Below are positions 26,544 to 56,200 of a stretch of DNA of 64,000 bases, in pieces (position 1 is the stretch's first letter; every line of letters begins with the position of its first letter). Under the pieces are notes generated by a model. It worked only from the letters and a program-made list of their open reading frames with translations, was not told the origin of the DNA and did not search any database. Source of the DNA: Cloeon dipterum (lineage: Eukaryota > Arthropoda > Insecta > Ephemeroptera > Baetidae). The position numbers and the translations under genes were made by a program. The DNA lies in contig NC_088789.1 in NCBI RefSeq assembly GCF_949628265.1, positions 27,459,883 through 27,523,882 on the forward strand. Direction: 5' to 3'.

Positions 26544-28156
26544 ATGTCGTTGCATATTACAAACCCACACAACGTAGACTTTAACGAGTCTGCAGTAAAA
26601 GATGTTGACTTCAATGCGACTGCTGTGTCATGGTACACCTCGAGAGACGCTGTGAGAGGCGAAATAGGATTCTGCGGACAGGATGAGTCAGCTATCAAGT
26701 ACTTGCACATGCCTGCATCGACAAGAGTGAATTTCAACTTGAATAGAACCCATCCAGGAGACAAACTGCAAATTGAAAAATATGCCGACAACAAAGATAT
26801 CAGTGACCTGTTATCTTGGGTGCAAGAAATTGGATTTGAGGAGGACAGGTGCTTATTGAAATGGGCAAAATTATGGTTCTTACTCTTACATCAAATTCTA
26901 TTCATCGTTTCAGCTTTACAAAGGCAGACTTTGTGTGCTCTCGCCATGATTTACTGGACCTGTTGTTGATGCCTTTCTCTGATCAAAGGTGATACATATA
27001 TTGACACTTCTGTTCTTTAGCATTTGGAGATGTTAACTTTCAATACAGCAGGAGAGCCTATAACAGTTTGCCAATTGTCTGCTTAAATTTTCTGCATGGC
27101 TCGCGCGCTGCTATCTTTTGTTATATAAGTGCTGCGGATACATATAAGCATCGCTTCTTTTTATAACACAACATATTAAATATCTTCTCAGATTCAACAA
27201 GAGCGTGAAACTGTACTTGACGAAAGTGAATGGGAAGATCTACATCCGCAGAATGGCTTCAAAACAAGACAAGGATCATATTGTGCACATGGACGACTTT
27301 TCAAAGCAGAGAACTACCCATGGATTAATTTTCCAGCATTATATGATTTCTGGTAAATTTCATGAGCAAATGGCATTAAATTCGTTAAATTAAAAAAAAT
27401 ATAATATTCATATATAGACTCGGCAAACAAGGCGCCTGTTCCTGATAAACCATTTGTCCGAGGGGACAAGACGATGTACGTCGTTTTCGAAAGCAGTGTG
27501 GGAAAGCACCAGCTGCTCTACGCATCCAAGGTCAAGGCCTTGGACAATCCTGAGGACTTGTTGAATTTGGACGGTGCCTCATTCACAGATGTCAGGACCA
27601 ACATGGGCAATTCGTCTGCCGACATCAGATGGTGGGCTTTTTCATAAAAATAGGAAGTATGAAAGCACTAATCTACCTCACAATTTATGTTATAGGAGGA
27701 AATGGCTTGAGTTTTGGGGAAACTGCATGACTGGCAAATTGGACAAGATCGCGATTGGCTTTGTCGGAAAGGGGCGCGCCATTGGCACGGTCAAAAACCT
27801 GGAGGTCATTCAAGCAGACAAGTTGATCCCCAAATGCGAGGTATTTTACTCTCAGATAGTTTTAATTAAATTTGCAACTTTTAAACTGACAAAATTTTCA
27901 GACTGCATACAAAAAAGACCGATATAAAACCTCAGATGTCATGCCCAAGGGGGAATATTGTTTGGATGTGCTCGACAAAGTGTTGTCTTTCTTCAAGAGT
28001 GAATTGGAGGGCGCCAAGCCAGACGAAGTGTACGAGTTTGAGTACACTCCCGCTGATTCCGAGTTGGCAAACATCAAACTTCTTGGCAGTTCCAATTACG
28101 ACTCCATTTTTGTAATCCCCAAATGGTACAAAGAGTGGCTGGACCGCCAGGCCTAG
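26544..28156 (+). CDS. DXO/Rai1-family pseudoenzyme, Cutoff-like
   Basis: Six exons close in phase: 26544-26848, 26914-26988, 27192-27352, 27418-27631, 27696-27840, 27902-28156, giving 384 residues (human DXO is 396). The fold order is recognisable: FVCSRHDLL (motif I, Arg112 kept), THGLIFQHYM (motif II), VGKHQLLYASKVKALD (motif III), LLNLDGAS (motif IV), then RKWLEFWGN, KIAIGF and the C-terminal FVIPKWYKEW. DXO/Rai1 enzymes remove aberrant caps and 5' ends using metal-binding acidic residues. Here motif II Glu is Gln175, motif III Glu and Asp are Lys218 and Lys220, and motif IV Glu and Lys are Asn230 and Asp232. Catalysis should therefore be lost. Drosophila Cutoff is such an inactive DXO relative, working with Rhino and Deadlock at piRNA clusters. 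Orthology to Cutoff is inferred; an independent loss is possible. Confidence 0.82.
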
Positions 28157-29264: not shown

Positions 29265-32200
29265 ATGTCCTACCAGTGGGAGGTTGTTGGCGGAAAAAAG
29301 CCCAAAGCCAACGGACAGCAAAGCAACAAGCTGACCAAAAGCGAAAAGAAAAAATTCGTCGAGAATGCACCAAAGGCTGAAGACATCTGTAAGTAAACGA
29401 CAGTCGATGAGGAGATTATGAATGTATATTTTTCGATTGTGTTCGCAGTGCCGTTAGTAGAAGTGCAGACCCTGTACACGAAATTGGACAAGAAGAAAAA
29501 GGCCGGACGAGACGGCTCGAACGAAAACAAGCAGAATGGCCAGTCAAACGGCAAAGCAGCTGTCAAAGCCGAGGTGGTCAGCAAACCGGCGGCGAGCAAA
29601 GCCAAGAAACAAACTCCATCTCCAGCCAAGACCGTCAAAGAACAGTCGCCCGAGCAGAAGGCCAGGGCCGCCCTGAAGAGCGTGGAAGTGGCCGACCTCA
29701 GTGCCTTGGTCCAATCTGGTAAGCAGCAATATGAAGAAGAGCCGTCGGTTTGGCTCCGCTTCCTGGCTTCCAGTTTGACCGCAAAACTGACCCCTGCGGT
29801 GTGGAACTATTTAAACATCGAAGACTTGAAGTCTTCAATTTTGGAGCTGTGCCCTGGAGAGCTGAAGAAGATGCTCGTGTCCACCGTCAAGGAGCTGAAC
29901 CCTAAAATCCAACAGGCCTTTTACGAGAACTGTTTGAGTGCTATAGCAAACGACGCCAGCAAAGGTCTGTTGACAACATCTGATTTATTCACTGCGGATT
30001 TTGATCGTGACGGAATTTCCATGCAGACCTGAAGGTGGATGGTTGGCTGCTGCTGATTGAAACCTTGTCCCACGTCTCCCCCGAGTTGGCTGTGAACAAC
30101 CTTTCTCGCTACGAGTCCATCATGGTTTCGTATCAAAATAGACCTGTGGTTGGCAAAACTTTGCTCTGGGCTCTTGGCCAGGCCGGACTCAGAAATTTGG
30201 CTGTCGGTGTACAGAGTAAGAAGTGCACTAATTAAAACATTGGCTGACTCCTGATTTTTTTAACTGCAGTTTGGCATTCCATTTTCCGGCCGAGGGCGGA
30301 CACAAAAAATTACTCTAAAGTTGTTACTGGCCACTTCTGCTCTTTCGTCCAAGCGGCATCGACCAAGAGCAAGAATGTGGCAGACAATAATATTAATTTG
30401 GAGCAATACCGTTCTTTCATCTTGCTGCTTACTTCAAAACCCTTTGTTGATCATCCATCTCTAGAGACTACGTTTAAGTCCCTGCAGGTTTGGCTTTTTT
30501 TCATAAATATGAGGTAACAAAAAGTTAAAAATGAAATTTTGAAGGTTCTTGCTGTGAAGACAATCACTGTGACTGTTATCTTCGAGGAGCTGTTCAATCA
30601 GTATGAGGGAACCAATTTTTCTGATGGAGACAAGGCCATGAAGCAGGTAACCTTGATGACGAGTTTAATAATTAGAATCAAATTTAAATTTCTGCAATTC
30701 TAACAGATCATGGAGGGTTTAACATGGTGCCTTAAAAAAGACGTGAAAGAGTCTGAAATTGCGTGGAACTCTATTTTGAGCAATAAAAACTTCAAGAAAG
30801 CTCTGGAAACCACGTATCAACTGCTTAAGCATATCCGTAATTATTTAAGTTCTCTTCTTTTATCTTAAGGTGCATTCATCACACACATTCCACAGAGTCA
30901 TCGTGGAATAAGAGCAACAAGGAAATGGAAAACTTTGCTGTTGACAACAGCTTCAGAGATGGCTTTGTGAATTTGCTCAAGAGTGTGGTGAAGAAGAGCG
31001 AATCTGTGCCAGGCACCAACAAAGTTCCGCCTGGACAGTGTGCCCATATCGCTCAGGTATTTTTTTTTTGTCCTTTGAAAAATGTGGCAACCCAAATTAG
31101 AGATTATTAAAAATATTTTTAGTAGACTGAGGATGTACATAATATATATTTTAAAAGTGAAAATATTTTTCTCAATTTTTGGCTCAAAATTTCTACATCT
31201 TACAAAGAAAACCCACGGTCTGACAAACGTGTCATAGTTTTGGAGTTTTGACCTGAACCAATGTTTTTCGAAATCGATTCAAAAAACAAATTTAGTTAAA
31301 TCACTGAGTTTTGGTCCATAAATTCTATTTAAAGGGACAGATCGATTGATGGGCCATTTTTAAATTTCTGCAAAGCCACTTAATTTTGGCATTGATGTCA
31401 CTTTGGACCAATTAAACGTTCTATAAACAATAATTTATACTTGAATTAAGAGCGGAAAAATTGTGCTTTAATTTTAAAACAAACTTATAAATTTTTGTCC
31501 CAAATTCTAAAAATTACTTCATGAAGTTTTTATTATTTTCAATCCGTTGGCAAGTCGCCAGCTTTTTACTGAGTCAAAATAAAAATATCGCAAACATTCG
31601 AGAGAGAAAACAAGAAGTTTTTACAATAATTAACGGCAAATTGCTGTGCAATTGCAAAATTGGGGAACACGTAGCCGTGTAAAACAATTAATTTTTTGTG
31701 TAAAATCTCCAAGTACTACTATATTGGCCAAAAGTAAGGGGGAATTTTTCCGGCTGTCTACTCACTACATCCTTTAAGTCTAGCTTTTACAAATAAAAAA
31801 ATTAATTATTTTGCACGGATAAGTGCTTGCCAATTTTGCAATTACAAAAAAATTACAATTAATTGTAACAAAAATCATGTGTCCCAACTTCAAGTTGTAA
31901 CCTAGTCAATATTTTACTTTTACCAAGTGACCGGCGTGTCTGTCACAATCAGGCTAACCTGGTTTAGTAGTAATACGAAAAAAATACTATCTCCTGCTTT
32001 AAATATTAGTGCTGCGCGATGCAGTAGTTTGGCGCCAAGTGTGATGTTGGCAACAGTGTGTTTAGCGTCTCGCTCATTTGAACTCTAGCTATTGATATTG
32101 ATTTCTTGTGTATATTCTCTAGATTTTGAATTAAAAGTAAAACTTGGTGTCAGTTGTTGGATCGGAGTAAGCACATTTCGAAAAAGAAGAACTCCTTGCT

Positions 32201-40702: not shown

Positions 40703-43700
40703 GAGGTATTGTGAACCCGCCGTGTGCGCGCGCGGGTGACCGAGCCGAGAGAGAACGCGAGAGCGAGAGAGAGAGAGAGTCCATAATATAATAGTACAGC
40801 ATGTAGACCGATGGGATTATGATTTATATCGAGCACACGCCAGTCCCGCGGGACGCGCAGCGAACATCACATTATGCCGCTGGCTGGTCGGTCACTCGCT
40901 CGCTCGCTTCGGCCTATCCATATTGTCTGTCCAGCGGCGTGATGGCTCGCTCGCTCGCCCACCCGCCTCTGCACTGTTGAATATGTGACGCTTTACTAAT
41001 AGCGCCTCATCACTTAACTCGCGCTGCTGCTTTACTAATTGCACCTATATCTATGTGCCGCGCGCGCTGCAACACTCACACACACACACACACGCTCGCC
41101 CGGTCGCCGACGGACGGCCTAACTCGTGTGCTATCTGTCGCTTTGCGGTCGGCCTGCAGCCCCTCGCGCTGAAAAATCACCCGCCGCGTGTGTGTGTTCT
41201 CTCTCTCCGCTCCAACACATATAGTCGCGCAGAGCGAGGTGTTGCGAATCTGTGCCGCCGCACCACCCACTGCGAAACCTACTGCCGCACTCTGATTCAT
41301 CCCCCGTGCGGTTATTGCCATCTGATTTTTCTTTCTGCTATTGATGCTCCATGTCCTGTGCTAAATGAGCGAGTGTATGGATTCCAATTTAAAATATTAT
41401 TACTTTCAGAGCTAAGGTTGCGATTTGAGACGGGTTTGGATCCAAATTGGATTTTTATTTTTAATCTATTTTTTCTTGTAACCATTTCACACGAGATTTG
41501 CTTCTGAAAAAGAGTTTTAAGGTGAATTAAAGGATTTAGCCGTCGTATTTTCCGGTTATATTAGTTGAATATCATTTATACTTAACTCGATTTTTCCCCA
41601 AAGCCTGGAAGCTCAACAGGCTGAAAAATCTGTTCTCCTGGTCATGTTTGGCTTAACCGCATGAATCTGAATAAAAAAATGAATAAAAAAATAAAAAATT
41701 GAGATTTTTAGCCTAATAATTTTAGCTAATGCATCGCATAAAAACACTAAGAACGGGTAAAATGTAGTTAAATCGCTTTAATTTGGCCTTTATTTTTTTG
41801 CAATGGTCAAAATATTAAAAAATGTGCTCTAATAAATACTACGATTTTTAAGTAAAATTAGGTTACAATTAAATTATTTTAAAAGTTAATTTTACAAGTA
41901 ATGGAATTTAAATTTTTCCCATTAAAACATCGATTTCAGTTGTCAGCATTTTATTGTGCACAGAAAAATATACTAAAATAATTTTCCGAAAAATCTTGAA
42001 TTACACCATCACGTTTTAGAAGCGATTTAGGACGATTGAAGGGCTTAAAACTGCGGGATACATGCTAATTTGATGTCTATAGCAAGCAGAAAAATTGCCG
42101 GTCGTCTCTAATTCCGGACCCTTAACAATAACAAAATATTTTCTTCCGTGAATTAAATTTGTATCTGATCATACAGTCAGTTTTTTCGGTTGGAAATTTA
42201 GTTTGAATTAAAATTCAGCACACGTGCAGAGTTTAAAAGTAGAACAAAAGACTTTTGATTGTATATCTATAGCAGTACAAGTGCGAACGAGGGTACCAAT
42301 TAGCAATGATGTGGTGCGGGTTAAGTGATTTGACGGTGCATGGCAGTGCCTCGCCTCCGAGATGAGGTTCGCAGGTCAACTGATGTTTACTCCGAGTGTT
42401 TGATTGGTTTGCAGGAGATGAGGAAGAAGACGACACCGAGCAGGACGTGGTGGTGCACACAGAGGCCGACGACGACTTTCGGCAGGCGAACCCTCCACGC
42501 ACACCCGGCAGTAGTATGTATCCTGCTCTTGAATTATTTAGCATGCAAACGGAAGCATTCTTTACAGAAATAGTATCGCACATTGTTAAGAAATTAAGAC
42601 TGACTTAAGATGTAATTTTCATTAATTCCAATATTCTTTTTGGAGCTAAGTAAATAAAAAAATCCAAATTTTAGGCTCTCCCCTGTCTGTTAGGAACTCG
42701 CAGCATTAAGTGAACAAATGAAGTTTCTCGGCCATTACCAAATTTCTGCTTGCTCCACCCGGGAAATGCATAATTAAGCGGCCTCTTAGTTAGTTGGCCG
42801 TCTTGAAAAGTGGCCGATAGCCAAGTAAACACGCTTGTAATACCATCCAAGCGCGCACTTGCCGGCTAATAGCGGAGATCGCTCGGCCGGGCAGGCAGGC
42901 AGGCAGGCAGGCTACTTTCGCCTAGCAAGAAACTACCTGACGCTTTCCCGCTAATACGAAGTGGCTGTGTGTGCATCGGCAATCTCCTTAATGCAAAATC
43001 TTTCTAAAAGTTAATATCCTTCTTAGCTCGGTGTTCGCGTTGTTCAAAGAAAAGGAAGGGCCTGCTCCTTGGAGACGTCTTGAGCTAAAACGCGCGCGGA
43101 CGTTGCTCAGGAAAGCGGCTGCACACACACACACGGATTGCCTGCCCCACGGCTGACGCAAACGGCTTTTACTCGATGGCTAAGTTGGCTAAACCAAAGA
43201 CGGAGATCACATGAGAGGTGGAAACTCCTCAATGATTTTTTTTATTATTAAAGAGTAATTTTTTTAACAGATGTAAAGATTTCTTTATTATATGAAACAT
43301 TTGTAAATTATACGAACAATATATAAATGACCTATTGGGAAAGTCCACCAAAAGATGACGCCACTGTTCATTTACAATTTTAAAGCTTCAGATTTTATCA
43401 TGCTACTGTAAATTTGTGATGAGCAAAAACATTTTTAGCGCATTTTGAATTTTGAGAGTTCATAATAAATCATTTTGAGAGTTTAAGTGTGCGTTGAACT
43501 CCTCTCGTCAAGCCCGATCAAATGAAATCCAAATATGAAGTCATCGGTCAAGGTAAAAGGTCACTAAGGCTAATTTTCGAAAATTTCATGGAATTTTTTG
43601 GGTTTTTTAAAACAGCAGCATACTTTAAAAATCCGAAACACCCCTCAAAAGGGGTCTCAGGGTGCTTATGAACTTGTGTGGAAATTACAAGGTGGTGCTC

Positions 43701-46700
43701 AACTTTGTTTCCCAAAAATTCAATTTTTAATTTCAAAAAGCACTAAATTTTCAATTTTTGCAAATGTTGTGAGCGCTAAATCTCGGGTTCTAAGGGTCAA
43801 AAATGCAAAAACTGCACACCATTCGACTTGGGTAGACTTCCTCAGTTGAGCTGAATGGTTTTTGGGGTGCTCACTGTTCCCTATCAACCCCTATTTGCCA
43901 TAATTTCACCCCCCGAATCGAAAAGTGAATATTTTTAACTATTCGCGATTTTTTGTTCTTTTATAACTGGAATTTGGAAATTAACAAAATTTCAAAGGAT
44001 ATTTATAAGAAGCATTAGACGTTTAAACAGCTAAATTTCGGCTTCCGGAATAAGGTATTTTTAATGACGATGTTCTAAAACCAATTTTCTTTGATTTTTT
44101 ATTCACAACATTTGTTCCACTGGTTTTCTGTTTAATTTTATATTATTGCTGGGTTGCAATTATCAATAATCTTCCTTTCTACCGCTTCACAGTCAGATGC
44201 GTTGGCTGTCAAAACGTCTAATTCGTTTCACCCATTAAAATATGTTTTGATTCATCCGGCATTATTAGCCTCTACCAATGTTCAAAACAAGAGTGTCAAA
44301 TTTTCGAATTTTACTGTAACGAAATGTTTCTATATTGCGCAACGTGATTGTTGACTACCAAAAGTCACAATTTTATAATTATTGCGGCAAATACATAGTT
44401 GAACTTCTTGTTCATTTGTGTATGACAAAAATCAGCAGTTCAGAGATCTGCATCAAAACAAAGTTATAAGTGACAGACGGAGCCTTGGTGAAGATTGGAC
44501 CCTTAATTGACCCTGCGAGGTTAATCAGAAAGGTCAATTGCGAGCGCACCCTGATTGCGTGCTGCAAGTGGACGCGAGTCGTAGCTGAATATTTTACACT
44601 CGTGTACACGCACACGAGAGCAAAGTGCGACACTCGGTCTCGCTCGCACGTCGGCTCCTCGGGTGACCAAAGTGTTGGCCCAGAATCATTAGTCAGGGTG
44701 GCAGTAGCAGCTTTATCACCTCCGCAGACGCCATTAGTTAGTGCCTGCTCTCCATTATTCGCGCATTTGTATCTCTGCTGTGTGCGCACCGCCTAGGGAA
44801 ATAGATTTGTCCATCTTTAATGACAACCGGCCGCCCGCAACCAACAACCATATCGTGCTGAATGCGCAGTGTGCAGGCGCAGTATCTCTCAAAATATTGT
44901 CTAGGACAATTAAATATTCCAAATTTAATTTCAACTGCAGTTGAAATTTTTTTGTTGAGCGAATATCACGGGTCGCAGGACGGTTTTGGCGGTGTCAGGT
45001 TAATCTGACGAAATTCCCACCATCGATCATAGTCTTAATTTAAAGGGTAACCAAAATGTTTCACAATTGCTGGTTTTACGGGAAATTTTTGCAGCGGGGT
45101 CCAGATGTGCGATAAAATTGGTTCCCAGTGCGCAGATCCAAGATGGCGTCTGAATGTTAGAAACAAAAAGCTCTCTTTGGATTGTCATACGAGTGTCAGA
45201 GTTTGTTTTTACGATCCAAAAGACACAAATTAGTACAAGTAATGCAAATTATGTCACAATATTGACGAAAACTTGGTTCGTTTCGCGCATTTTCACGTGA
45301 CTGTTTTTTCGCGCCATACTCCACCGGACGCCATATGTGCGCGTCGTATGAATCTGGTACCCGCTGCATTTTTGGAGAATTTTTAGTCTACTTATTTCAG
45401 TATGCTGACCTTGCCTAGTGAGAAATATTCCTAGTGTGAACTATTGTATTATTTGTCTCCTTGTGTTGACCAACCCGTATATCAGTAATTTATTTTTTAT
45501 AACTTATTTTGTGATGTCTACTTTATTATATATTGAAGCTAATTTAAACCACCTGTTATTTATGAATTTACGAATAGCTAAAATGAGTTAAATTCTTGTG
45601 ATGTATTCCAAATATTTATTGACATGACGGACTGAATTATTTTATGCTATCTCGAGTCAACAATAAATCTGGCATTTCGACAATTTCAGGGATTTATCCT
45701 CCATGCATCCCCATAGTGTTGAATAATTCTCTAGGTTGAAGAGTAAATTTACGACTTAACCAACATCTTACACGATATTCGTAGGACTAAAATGTAGATC
45801 TATTTGTGTTTTAGTTCAAGGAGACAGCCGAGGCTCTCCCCTACCTCCTGCCATACAAAATTCTCCCCTGCAGCATGAGTGGCAGGCAGCATCAGCCGAG
45901 AGAGGGACAGAAGAAGACCCTGGCGAAGATCCGGCTTCACCTCTGATACTGCCAAATGAAGGTAAGCAAAAACAATAAAAATGTTCATTTTGTTACATTT
46001 TTGAATGGAAAATAACACTAAAAGCGGCATGTCTGTGACAATGTCTGCACTCTCGCCTGCAAAAGTAACGCCTTTGGGGACATGAAAAATTAAATCTGCC
46101 GGCACTCGAGCGCAAATGAAGTTGGGACTTGTACACGAAATTACACAGGGATTAATAGTTGAAATTTTTACCATTCCACGTCGAGGATTGTATTAAAAAC
46201 CTTGTTAAAAATGCATTCATCCGCCTCTCTCTATCTCTCTTTCTCTCGACCGCCCACAGAATTAAACACAACTCGTTTCAGTTAAGTTAATTTTTCAGCC
46301 GGCCTGCTGGAATTTCGGGCAAATCTGTTTTCTTTATTTCCCATGTCGCGGCTTACTCGCTTTCGGTCGGCTTCCCCTGAGTTGCGCGAATTTATATAAA
46401 CACGCCGGCAGAGTGAGTGAGTGAGTGAGTGAGGCTTGCCCACAAATTTCATTAGAATTTTTGAGTTTTCGACGCCCGCCTAGCGGCCTGGAAGCTCTCG
46501 CGTCGGCCAGGGAATAAATATTTACGCACGCTAAGGCCGAAAAAAGCGGCCTTATCGAGTTTACTCGGCCCGATAAGCCAGGCTGATGCTCTCCCGAGAC
46601 CTAATAGGATATCTCATCTGCTCGCCGCCTCCCAATTTTCCGTGTGTGACCATACTCGCTCTCTCTCTCTCTCCGCTCTCCACTGCGGCCGGAGAGAGGT

Positions 46701-49700: not shown

Positions 49701-52700
49701 ATGTATGAACCATATATTTATTGCCTGCAAAACCACTCAGCGTGCAGATAAACACGTGAATCGATTTGCAATATAATTGAGGAGGAGGAGGCGCAGGCTG
49801 CGTGCAGGAATCGACATATTATTCGGAGCTGCCGCTGCCGGTGGTGGCAGGCAGGCGGGCGGGTGAGCGGGCTGGCGGGCGGCGAGCAGAGCGTGCCGAG
49901 AGAGGGCTGTTCTGCCACACTGCAGCCCGAGAGCCAGGCAGGCAGCATTAGCAAGGGAGGAGGGCTGCGCGATGGTGCCGGTCCTCTGGGAGTCAGTCGC
50001 TCCCCAACCCACACCACCAGCCCATTCTGCTCCCGCGAGACTGCCTCCGCATTATTTCTCTTGCTCTCGCAGTATAGCACCTTCCCAGGGGATAAAAGTA
50101 TACCTAAATTCATGCCGTGCACCAGTGACGTCAGATGAGACATAAATACGCCACTGGCATGCCACTCGGTTTGTTCTCTCTCTCTCTCTACCTGTGCGAT
50201 TGGCCCACCCCTGCAACCCCCCGACCGCCCGCGACACATGCCTATTTATTCGATATCATTTGTGTACTTGTTTCCACGGCCTGATTGTCCTTTCGCATCG
50301 AGATTTTTCAAACAAACCGTTTTAGGGCAGTGTAACACAGATTTCTTTTTTTATTTTTAAATTATCTAGGTTAAAGCTTAAAGTTTTTTTCACCACTGGT
50401 GTATACGGGTCAATTTTTTGCGGTAGAAGAGGAAATTATTTTTTTCTAGCAAAAATCCAAAATTCCTCCGCTTGTTTTTAATTTAAAAATGCTATTCTGA
50501 GATTTCAGTCTACTCTTAACTTTGTCGAGGTCATGGGCATATTAAGTTACAAATTATTAATAAAATTACGGATAAATATTCCTTCAAGATACTGGTAAAA
50601 ATTAAAAAAAAGATAAAACAGCAATGCGAAAGGATATTTTTGCGACCCTTAGGGTAAATTATATTTCTAAAACTTTTAATTTCCGAAAAGTAGTTATTAA
50701 ACTCGAGATTTATGAGTCGCTAAATTAAATAAAGAGCACAAATAGCTAGTGTACTTACAAAATTGCTCCAAAAATTTTAAAATTCGTATACTTGAAAATA
50801 TGAGAGTTATTTTAGAATTTTATAATTTCCCTGTAAGGTTAGCCGTTTTAGTGTGACTTACCCAATAAAAATTAACGAGAGTTCTGTAAACTTTAATATT
50901 TTTACTGCCTTCTGCCCCTTTCTTGACGGCTTATAAGGAGAAATTAAACACTGCACCACTGCTTGCAGTAGGTTCAAGAATGAAAAAGTTCGCTCTGCGG
51001 AAGAATAATTTAACCGTGCCTAAAAATCTTTCCTAATAAGCAAAACGCAAGGCTGGTATGGCTCCAGCTATCCATTTTATTTGCACATGGGTGAGACTTC
51101 TGCATAATGCAGTCGCTCTCGAGCCATCGTCGCCAGCTGTGGAAAAAGAAACTTATTTTCAGGCAGCGTCTCGACGTCTGAAATTGGCCAGATCTCTCGC
51201 CAGAATGACAGGCCGCTGGTCATTTAGCCAGCAAGTCTGCACGCATCAGCCGAGGGTGGCTGGATTTTAAAGAGTGGCAGACACGAGAAAAAAACTTATA
51301 TTTGCAAGAAAAAGAGAGCGAAAGAAAGGGATGCACGGAGAAGAAATAGCGGAGGCGCTCCGGAGGAGGAAGGCGTTTGCAAATGAGATGACTGTGGAGA
51401 GAGCGCGCGCGAGAGAGAGAGAGAGAGACCGAGAGAGAGCGAGAGAGAGAGAGACGTACTGCTGGCTGCATATTTCCCTGGAGGTTCCTGGGGCGCCTCT
51501 TTCCACTCAACTCCTCGCGCTCTTTTCTCCCTCACTTACACCCTTGGGAATTCCCTTGGCGTTCTGATTAGTTCGGCTCCCAAAGGTACGCCCCCACTCG
51601 CGCGCGCGCTACCTTACTCTGCTGTGTGCGATGTTAATTCCAGCACACGCCAAGCTCTCTCTCTCTCTCTCTTTCAGCTCCATGTAATCATGTTGCCTGC
51701 CGCTGGATGGCTAATATAATTCTCCCTGCGCCCCGTAATGAGCTCTATTTATAAATGGAGAACACGGGACGCAAAAATGAATAAAGAAGTTTATTTCTTT
51801 GTAATGCTGACTTGAATATCAAATGAGTTGGGCCTCTCTTTTTTTGGCGTATTTTCGGTTTGACTTAAAATGACCTGGCCTTCTTCTCAAACTTTCCTCG
51901 CCCCAAAACTTGTATTAGTTGTTTTATCTGATGGGGCATACGCACAAAGATAGAAAAAGAAATAGGAATAAAATTCAGTTCAGTCAGACCTTATATATTC
52001 CACTTAGGGTGCATTGCTGAAGAAATTTGAATTTAAATAAAAAAAATCATTAACTCTCTTAATTGGAAATCACGCAACTAGTTATAAGTGTCTTAAGATT
52101 ATTTTTGCCAATTTTGTCACCACCAAATCTCGGGCTCTGACGGTTAGAATTGCAAAAACTGCACACCGTTCGACTCGTCGCGACCTCCCCTAGATAGCCG
52201 TGAGGTTTTGAGTTTGATCTCCCTCATCCCCTTCCACCCTGTACATTATATAATAGCGAGAAAAATCGCGTTGCTTTTTGCACTTTCAGCAAACTGGTCA
52301 CAGCTCTCTTTAATTTGAAAATCTACCCCAAAATACTCTTCATAGACAGTGAAAAAAGGTTAAAAATAAACATCTAAATTGCAGAACGGGAAATATCATT
52401 TTTAAAAATCAATTTTTACTATGTTGGAGTAGAAAAAACGCAAATAGGGGTTGGTGACTGATTAGATCACCCCTAAAATCCACCGTCTATCTAGAGAACG
52501 TTGAGACGAGTCGAACGGTGTGCAGTTTTTGTGATTCTAAGCGTTCAAACTTGAAATTTAGTGTTTACAATATTGGCAAAAATTGAAAGATTTAATTTTT
52601 AGTAAAATTGTGGTTGATTAGTCGGTTTAATAAATCATCTTTATCTTACTAATCGATCAATAATTTTTTTAATGAAAATGCCAATAAATCCCAATAATTA

Positions 52701-53231: not shown

Positions 53232-56200
53232 CCGCTCCCCTGGCGACCTAGATGAAAATATCACGCCAGCTTTTCCTCGGCCACTCTCCTCAAGAGTTAA
53301 CTAATTCCATCAATAGGAAAGGTAGGTAGGTGAGTGCGAAACACACGCGGCCGGCGTTTTTGGAAAAACACAAGCAAGCAAGCAAGCAGCCGGCCGCCGC
53401 CCTCCCCTGCGGTTTGCACTTTTTGTTTCAACTTTTTATTACGTGTGATGCCGTGTCCACTGAGGAATGCCGCCGAATACATACTTTAGCACCGGCAGTG
53501 AAGCAGCGCATGCCACAATTTCCGAGGCGGGCTTAAAGCCTTTCCACACCTATTTGAAACTTTACTCTGCTGGTACATAGTGCTGATACTATGTCCAATC
53601 AAAGCGGACCAGTTGTGCAAACTAGCCAAAAATAAAATAAATATTGCAATGCATGTTAATTTTTTTTAAAGAGTCGTATGCACGATTAAAAGGACAAAAA
53701 TGCCTGGAGGTCAAACAAATACTCAAAGATATTTACAACAGAAATCAGTCATCACTTGTAGATAGCATTATTAAAATATTTTTCATTTTTACGGGATGAT
53801 TTTGGTAAACTTTGAGACCCCAGTGGTGCAATTTTTAAAATAAGGGGCTCTTTGGATTCCTCTCACCGAGCCAAATCGAACTGACACCAAATTTCATGTC
53901 CTAGGTCAAGACCAGGTTAATTATGATTGATAATTAAAATTTTGTAATTTTAAAGTTGTGCTTAAAAGTTGTCCCATTGCATGTGCAAACTTCTGTGAAA
54001 ATTTCAGAGTCGTTTGCTTTTCCATTTTCGTAAAATCCCGCTTCAAAACTTGAAAAACACGAATTTTTCGACTTTTTCCTGTTTTCCTTAATTTGCCAAC
54101 TCCAAATCTCGGGTTCTAACCATCAGAATTGCAAAAACTACCCATCGTTAGACTCGCATCGACCTCACTTGACTAGCTGAAGGGTGTAGGGGATGCTTAC
54201 CTTCTATCCCTAGATTTCAACCCTCTTAAAAAACAAGACAAACGCTAGATTTTTTATTCTCTTACAATTAATTGAGATACGAACTATTTTATTTTAAAAT
54301 GTATTAGTAATAAAGGGTGAGTTTTCGGCAATTTTAAATATTTTCAAACCTCATGCAGGGATGCTTAGCAGTAAATATTTGCTATTATAATAGTAGCAGA
54401 AGAGTATGTATTTGCAAATTTCGAAAAAGTTGAAAAGTTCGTTATTTCTTTAGCTTTTAAGTGGAATTTATTGAAAACTAAAAATAACGCCTCCGAAATT
54501 TTTACACAAGGTCACTCATGCATTTGGACAACTTCAAAGCACACTTTTAAAATTCAAAAATTCTGAGATTATTTTCATAAGAAATCAAAATTAATAGTTG
54601 TGACTTTTGACCTTGATCTAGGGCATCAAATGTGGTGTCAGTTCAATCGGAATTGGAGAGAAAAATCTAAATCGCACACTTTTATTGAAATATCACAACG
54701 GGAAAATGAGACACTCCGTGTTAAAAGTCCCTGAATTGTCCCATAAAATTAATATTTTGTAGAAAATCTGCTAGTAAAGGCTCCATGCTAATTTTGTCTT
54801 TCTACCCATGACATTACGTCAATCAATTAAATGTCAAAACCAACGATAACGTACGCCTATCAATTTGTTTAGAGATGTTAATTAATAAATTCTAGTTAAT
54901 TTCAATCACCTCTTTAACCACGGATGTTAAAACCCTTAAATTTGATGTGATCAGAGTGAAGCAAGAATTTGGATTAGACGCCGGTGCGGATCTATCTAAT
55001 TCCAAAGTTGGCGCGTGTTTTCTCCAGCAGAGGAGAATGTAAAATTTATGGGTGCCTGCCTGAGGCGGCGACTGCGTCCCTGAAGTCATTAGCAGTTAGG
55101 TCCCAGCAGCTAGTGTGTCATAGCTCATGCACTTGGAAGGTGGATGAGGTGAAAGACGACGAGCTGGGCCCCGGCTCTTGGCTGCCTCCCTCAAGACTAG
55201 CAGCCGGCAGCATCCGCCGAGAGAAAGAAGACTCGTCCCCCGTCCCCCGCCCCCCGCCTGCCGCCCCCTGCCCGCTCTTCGCCCGATGTCGTCTTTCTGC
55301 AAAAATTTCTCCGCGCGCGTTCTGACTCGGCGTCCCTGGGGAGCTCGAGCAAGTTGGCACAAAATTAATGTCTCGAGGTGAAACATTTTCTATATCGCTT
55401 GCAAAATTTATACACACGCCGACTTCTCGCTCACAGCGGCGCGCGTGCGGCCGGGAAGGGTAATAAAACTTGAAATAATTATCATGCATAAAGGATAATT
55501 TCAGGCAGGCAGCGCGACGTTTTTCTTACAGCAAGGAAACGGGCGTTATCTTCGTGTAAAACATTAAATTTGTTTCTTGAAAGAAAAAAATAAATTAAAT
55601 CCCTTGCATGGGAGTGTTTGCCCATGTGAAGGTTGACAGTTTGGAGCTTTTGAAATTGAATTATTTAGACTGGAAATTGTTTCAGACGCAGAAGAGTTCT
55701 ACCGGCGGCGCGTAGGCGTCACGTCAGGTGGCGCCGCTCTTGACGACCTGGACCACAACAGTCTCGACTCGGGTGAGTTTTCCACCCTTTCCTGTTGGCC
55801 GGAATATTGGCTTAAAAATAGTAGCCGTGCCGGGCGTAATGGCCAAGTTAGGCCCGGCCGGCATTAATTTTAAATGGGCTTTGTTAAGTTGACTGTCCGG
55901 CCGGGGGTGGGCAGGGGGTGGTGCCAAAAATTAACACTCGGACATCGCTTTTCACTTTATCCAATTTAGTATGGAGAGTCGGATGTGTCAGGGGAGGGTG
56001 ACGAGAGAATAAAGGTATTTCTCGCCGAGAATAATTAAGACAGAGGCTGCTCCTGTGACGCAGTGGGCGAGCGGAACGAACGCAGTCGCTCCTTGAGAGA
56101 CAGCACGAGCAGCAGAAGGGTCAAACATGAAATATTCACTGCATGGCTTGCTTACTTGTCTCTCATGGCCATAATAATTCAGTCCAAACCCCCGCGGGAA

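Follow-up and report, generated by a model that had tools for sequence, protein, structure and literature searches.

A DXO/Rai1-family gene with an altered metal site: a probable pseudoenzyme among four related genes that look inactive

The locus described here raises the question of whether a gene of the DXO/Rai1 family has lost its catalytic site and is still kept by selection, and if so, what its protein might do. The window, meaning the whole stretch of 64,000 nucleotides that was analysed (C4:27459883-27523882), belongs to an assembly of 190,111,064 bases in ten contigs, five of which are 33-43 Mb long. A sequence-only reading had proposed that the window contains a 384-residue member of this family, a pseudoenzyme similar to Drosophila Cutoff. 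The gene itself, its coordinates and its length were all borne out: the gene model runs from 26544 to 28156 on the + strand and has six exons, five GT-AG introns and 384 residues. Coding exon 1 (26544..26848) begins at ATG and is an open frame that ends at a GT donor, and exon 2 (26914..26988) carries Arg112 (26942-26944). Exon 3 (27192..27352) carries Gln175 (27334-27336), and exon 4 (27418..27631) carries Lys218 (27528-27530), Lys220 (27534-27536), Asp238 (27588-27590) and Arg240 (27594-27596). Asn261 (27721-27723) is in exon 5 (27696..27840), and exon 6 (27902..28156) ends with the stop codon TAG. Mis-joined exons were considered as a source of the residue changes described below and rejected, because every compared site lies inside an exon. 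At the local base composition, the probability that an unconstrained frame stays free of stop codons over 384 codons is about 7e-13; this value, together with a dN/dS below 1 against a second copy, indicates that the window gene is more than a chance reading frame.

The Pfam RAI1 profile (PF08652) matched the window protein with E=2.1e-30 and 106.6 bits, compared with a curated cut-off of 26.8, and the match spans residues 46-377 on profile positions 19-333 of 333. The proposed DXO/Rai1 membership is borne out by this match, and the profile match together with the gene structure shared with other family genes shows that the window gene belongs to the RAI1/DXO family by descent. No further RAI1 copy with a better E value than 0.77 was found within the window, and Rfam and tRNA scans over it were empty. 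The neighbours identified by Pfam are an ETS/pointed-domain gene, a PI31-type gene and TMEM214, and a nearby frame ending in KDEL, recognised by eye, is presumably BiP-like. The window also contains an inverted repeat (31639-31697 / 31796-31854) with 59-nt arms that are 81% complementary and 98 nt apart.

The catalytic site was compared with that of mouse DXO. In the cited part of PMC7293010, Glu234 and Glu253 are described as direct metal ligands and Glu192 as acting via metal-bound waters, while Arg132 and Gln280 hold the cap-side phosphate and Lys255 and Gln280 hold the 3' phosphate. The metal ions are held by negatively charged residues of motifs II, III and IV, according to the extract of PMC9283932. 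The register was set by the Pfam profile positions of pieces of the window protein and of mouse DXO. Gln175, Lys218 and Lys220 fall on profile positions 141, 190 and 192, as do mouse Glu192, Glu234 and Asp236. The first proposal had named these three residues correctly; it had numbered the motif II glutamate Glu185, which is Glu192 in the mouse numbering of the PMC7293010 extract. Residue 243 fell on profile position 212 in two fragments of the window protein, which places Asp238 on 207 and Arg240 on 209, the positions of mouse Glu253 and Lys255; a third fragment, whose last residue is 241, aligned only as far as residue 227 and is silent on this register. The same pairing was obtained from phmmer and MAFFT alignments. 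The partners of Glu253 and Lys255 are therefore Asp238 and Arg240, and not Asn230 and Asp232 as proposed. All five catalytic residues said to be replaced are changed, two of them only conservatively (Glu253 to Asp238 and Lys255 to Arg240), and the first of these is the one site at which an acid was recovered at a shifted position.

Arg112 aligns with mouse Arg132 in the profile register, so that the phosphate-binding arginine is kept, and Asn261 pairs with Gln280 in the alignments. Among the three phosphate contacts, Arg132 is thus kept and Lys255 and Gln280 show conservative changes, to Arg240 and Asn261. The metal-site acids Glu192, Glu234, Asp236 and Glu253 are represented by Gln175, Lys218, Lys220 and Asp238. 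With two metal sites occupied by lysine and one by glutamine, two-metal catalysis by the window protein appears very unlikely. We infer that there is no hydrolysis, because Gln, Lys and Lys stand in place of Glu192, Glu234 and Asp236.

The genome contains at least six RAI1-family genes, one on C3, one on C5 and four on C4 including the window gene. Only the best candidates were scored in the genome searches, and six is therefore a lower bound. Since most animals have one DXO homologue and C. elegans has eleven, according to the part of PMC13129544 cited here, six genes would be unusual yet have a precedent. An active DXO copy in the same genome had been suggested as a point of comparison, and two candidates were found: the C3 and C5 genes, with five exons each, appear active in that all seven catalytic-site residues are intact. 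At DXO sites 132/192/234/236/253/255/280 they have R/E/E/D/E/K/Q, and the window gene and its nearest copy have R/Q/K/K/D/R/N. Both the C3 and C5 genes were matched in a search of the genome with the RAI1 profile, in which the window gene was unlisted because its exons score too low singly. Diverged members are therefore missed when the profile is used on its own. With the window protein as the query, a gene with 90% identity was detected at C4:27849186-27850743 (the 27.85-Mb copy), and its six exons are those of the window gene. The same search gave two more distant genes, a pair near C4:5.41 Mb, at C4:5413273-5414789 (C4:5.413) and C4:5415106-5416810 (C4:5.415). A genome search with one of the 5.41-Mb proteins gave no further genes. 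In collections of viral contigs and genome contigs no relatives were confirmed, as 77 and 100 pattern matches failed in tblastn.

The main homologous block between the window gene and the 27.85-Mb copy has 1754 columns and 87.5% identity. It reaches barely beyond the gene, which indicates that the copy is a duplicate and not an alternative haplotype. Three other parts of the window (43464-43944, 52101-52600 and 54102-54200) are 69-81% identical to DNA beside the 27.85-Mb copy and have the look of interspersed repeats. At the seven sites C4:5.413 has D/M/S/D/Q/K/K and C4:5.415 has D/M/F/D/H/K/K, with the first site loosely aligned in both. The pair has lost the arginine at site 132 and kept Asp236 and Lys255. 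Judged by these residues, the four C4 genes look inactive. C4:5.415 (L041 6107-7787) is about ten residues shorter at its end than its tandem neighbour, and its fourth intron has 386 bases compared with 118.

The RAI1 scores follow a gradient: 233.7 bits for C3, 178.5 for C5, 106.6 for the window protein, 110.1 for the 27.85-Mb copy, and 39.9 and 35.9 for the 5.41-Mb pair. Pfam scans of the six proteins found RAI1 only, apart from a sub-threshold Cpf1_PI-like match in the window gene and its copy. In phmmer searches against mammalian DXO, C3 scored 143.7 bits, C5 120.8 and the window protein 19.9. Low similarity alone is no proof of inactivity, since the K. lactis chain KLLA0E02245p, which we take to be Dxo1, an active enzyme, scored 15.5 bits against a mouse segment.

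Some features of the assembly lie apart from this gene family. Satellite-like tandem repeats of related sequence are found at the starts of contigs C4, C7 and C9 (L011, L014 and L016), and L008, L012, L013 and L015 have another AT-rich repeat in common. No TTAGG array was found in the genome search, which skips simple repeats, or in 12 contig-end stretches.

Four introns are common to all six genes in position and phase, within one alignment column. The genes are therefore DNA-level duplicates and not retrocopies. The four inactive-looking genes carry one further intron, in phase 2 and at alignment columns 145-147, which in the window gene lies at the end of exon 2, and the C3 and C5 genes are without it. 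This intron is likely to be homologous among the four; its homology is not certain because the two-column difference falls in a gapped stretch. A loop near the C-terminus is 9 or 12 residues longer in the four genes than in C3 and C5. In a maximum-likelihood tree of seven rows the four genes form one clade (100/100), as does each pair (100/100 each). A tree of four rows left the window gene unplaced (65/64), and the seven rows resolved its placement. The simplest reading is that catalysis was lost once, before the two pairs split, and that different changes followed in each.

The window gene has evolved faster than its active-looking paralogues. With mouse DXO as the reference, it has 40 lineage-specific changes against 12 in C3, and 42 against 13 in C5 (p ~1e-4), while C3 and C5 have 20 each when compared with one another. 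The window gene keeps 23 of the 51 columns that are conserved in C3, C5 and mouse. At the catalytic site it keeps 1/7, compared with 22/44 of the other conserved columns, a difference that is not significant (Fisher p 0.11). Between the window gene and the 27.85-Mb copy, dN is 0.052 and dS 0.121, giving a dN/dS of 0.43 (bootstrap 0.27-0.71), and none of 1000 codon bootstraps reached 1; the introns of the two are 71-90% identical. This ratio indicates that the protein of the window gene is maintained. In the 5.41-Mb pair dN is 0.26 and dS 1.27, a ratio of about 0.2 with dS near saturation. The dN/dS values are approximate because the counting method is simple. Purifying selection acts within each recent pair. 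The proteins of the window gene and its copy differ at 40 residues, and none of these is one of the seven pocket sites. The pseudoenzyme claim of the sequence-only reading is upheld, with corrections of detail, and is strengthened by the other genes of the genome. Of the four metal-site acids, one has become glutamine and two have become lysine, where two RAI1-family genes of the same genome keep all four, and the altered pocket is unchanged in a second copy under purifying selection.

Our data suggest, with a probability of about one in two, that the window gene belongs to a family of DXO pseudoenzymes that hold RNA 5' ends without cutting them. An intron-bearing DXO gene would have been the ancestor of the four paralogous genes, the metal site would have been lost, most simply before they diversified, and selection would then have retained them for a non-catalytic job. 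The fold and the pocket would persist and grip RNA 5' ends. Two lysines stand where metal-site acids stood, and phosphates could therefore be held by their positive charge instead of by metal ions. A protein of this kind might shield chosen RNAs from active DXO or Xrn enzymes, or compete with these enzymes. When three of these acids were removed from mouse DXO, the triple mutant continued to bind 3'-FADP and no metal was visible, as reported in the extract of PMC7293010. Binding of 5' ends is our first choice because the phosphate contacts are kept or conservatively changed, two lysines have been gained and the inactive mouse DXO binds a ligand. Several points count against it. Changes are not significantly more frequent in the catalytic columns than in the other conserved ones, and Asp238 is still acidic. 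The 5.41-Mb pair lacks the arginine and keeps Asp236 and Lys255, and therefore the four proteins need not share a ligand.

Second after 5'-end binding, and tentative, is a role as a scaffold, in which the RNA pocket is unused and the DXO fold is retained for protein partners, for example in regulating active DXO or Xrn enzymes. Fast change outside the catalytic site as well as in it, with 23/51 conserved columns kept, would be expected of such a protein, and the loss of Arg132 in the 5.41-Mb pair points the same way. Against this role, Arg132 is retained in the window pair, Lys255 and Gln280 are replaced there by similar residues, and the pocket sites are identical between the two copies.

Rather unlikely is that the window gene encodes a Cutoff-like germline factor, an orthologue or a product of convergence, that sits on transcripts from piRNA sources and prevents them from being terminated, spliced or degraded. 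In the passages cited here, Cutoff is a Rai1 homologue in which key catalytic residues are missing (PMC11125864), and it was proposed to protect the 5' ends of piRNA-cluster transcripts (PMC4053829). The same family, the same kind of loss and the fast evolution of the window gene are consistent with this idea, as are the Piwi-type genes present in the genome. About 19 Piwi/Argonaute loci were found on contigs C1-C5 by our own grouping of 59 exon-level matches, which is a large set. Drosophila has five Argonaute-superfamily genes. Piwi fragments from two of the 19 loci matched silkworm Siwi best among solved structures, better than fly Piwi. A Drosophila host is therefore unlikely, although it may be another dipteran; the genome seems arthropod-like, judging by the genes around the window gene. 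In searches with DXO-family proteins, no match among the solved structures listed bore the name Cutoff. The genome has two adjacent chromo-shadow matches, which we read as one HP1-type gene, and no Rhino-like HP1 paralogue was visible in the exon-level search, which can miss diverged copies. One HP1-type gene lowers the chance of a complex of the Rhino-Deadlock-Cutoff type, although the protein may have a piRNA role by another route. Reported absences of Cutoff in other insects also count against a Cutoff-like factor. In the portions of the sources cited, mosquitoes are reported to lack cuff (PMC7601171) and Trichoplusia ni to have no detectable Cutoff orthologue (PMC5844692); the medfly has a cutoff gene (PMC5034548), and Rhodnius is described with one Rai1-like gene (PMC6179187). 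The Cutoff-like reading is not supported as an identity and may still apply to function, and a separate loss of DXO activity, the alternative given in the sequence-only reading, fits better.

It is improbable that the protein is still an enzyme, either through a site rebuilt from other residues together with Asp238 or through some other arrangement of the metals. The acidic Asp238 and the conservative replacement at Arg240 would fit this, but lysine occupies two metal-site positions and glutamine a third, and the second copy has the same three residues. The high divergence and the early end of C4:5.415 might point to a pseudogene in decay or to an error in the gene model. This reading is largely refuted: each of the four inactive-looking genes has open frames and GT-AG introns, dN/dS is 0.43 in one pair and about 0.2 in the other (with synonymous change near saturation), and four intron positions and phases match C3 and C5.

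The non-catalytic 5'-end binder, if correct, would add to a short list. The non-catalytic DXO homologues named in the literature we found are few, Cutoff and eIF3d, the latter in the cited part of PMC7293010; Cutoff is therefore not the only non-catalytic homologue; the sequence-only reading had named it as the one other inactive member with a clear job and had left eIF3d out of account. Judged from titles and abstract openings, none of the open-licence papers that we found describes an insect clade of inactive DXO genes. Four such genes at two levels of divergence, grouped in one clade and accompanied by catalytic-looking relatives in their own genome, would provide a natural series from a decapping enzyme to an RNA-binding or regulatory protein. 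If the host is not a fly of the Drosophila or medfly type, Cutoff would not be the only case in which a DXO gene was kept after its catalysis had been lost. A further idea, which we consider unlikely, is a convergent counterpart of Cutoff: in a non-Drosophila lineage, DXO duplicates may have become a set of several non-catalytic guards of RNA 5' ends, in which lysines replace acids and hold phosphates, possibly tied to the enlarged Argonaute set and to control of transposons or viruses.

Compared with known systems, the window gene shares its family with the DXO/Rai1 enzymes (PF08652) by profile and has the exon frame of its C3 and C5 paralogues; unlike these, it has the acids at 192, 234 and 236 replaced and scores 106.6 bits against 233.7 and 178.5. 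eIF3d, the cap-binding eIF3 subunit, is similar in being a non-catalytic DXO homologue (PMC7293010, in part), and none of the six proteins matched its profile in Pfam scans that listed E values up to 1. In C. elegans, EOL-1 and the DXO paralogues form a lineage-specific, partly tandem expansion, as outlined in the extracts of PMC13129544 and PMC7735679, which is similar to the expansion seen here. In contrast, one of the loss-of-function changes of EOL-1 affects the residue that pairs with DXO Glu253 (PMC13129544, same extract), so that catalysis matters for EOL-1. Drosophila Cutoff resembles the window gene in the loss of key catalytic residues, by its description in the cited part of PMC11125864, and Cutoff, Rhino and Deadlock are reported to be rapidly evolving (PMC12992792, in the text cited). 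It differs in that there is one Cutoff gene, compared with four genes here, which stand in a genome in which no Rhino-like HP1 paralogue was detected.
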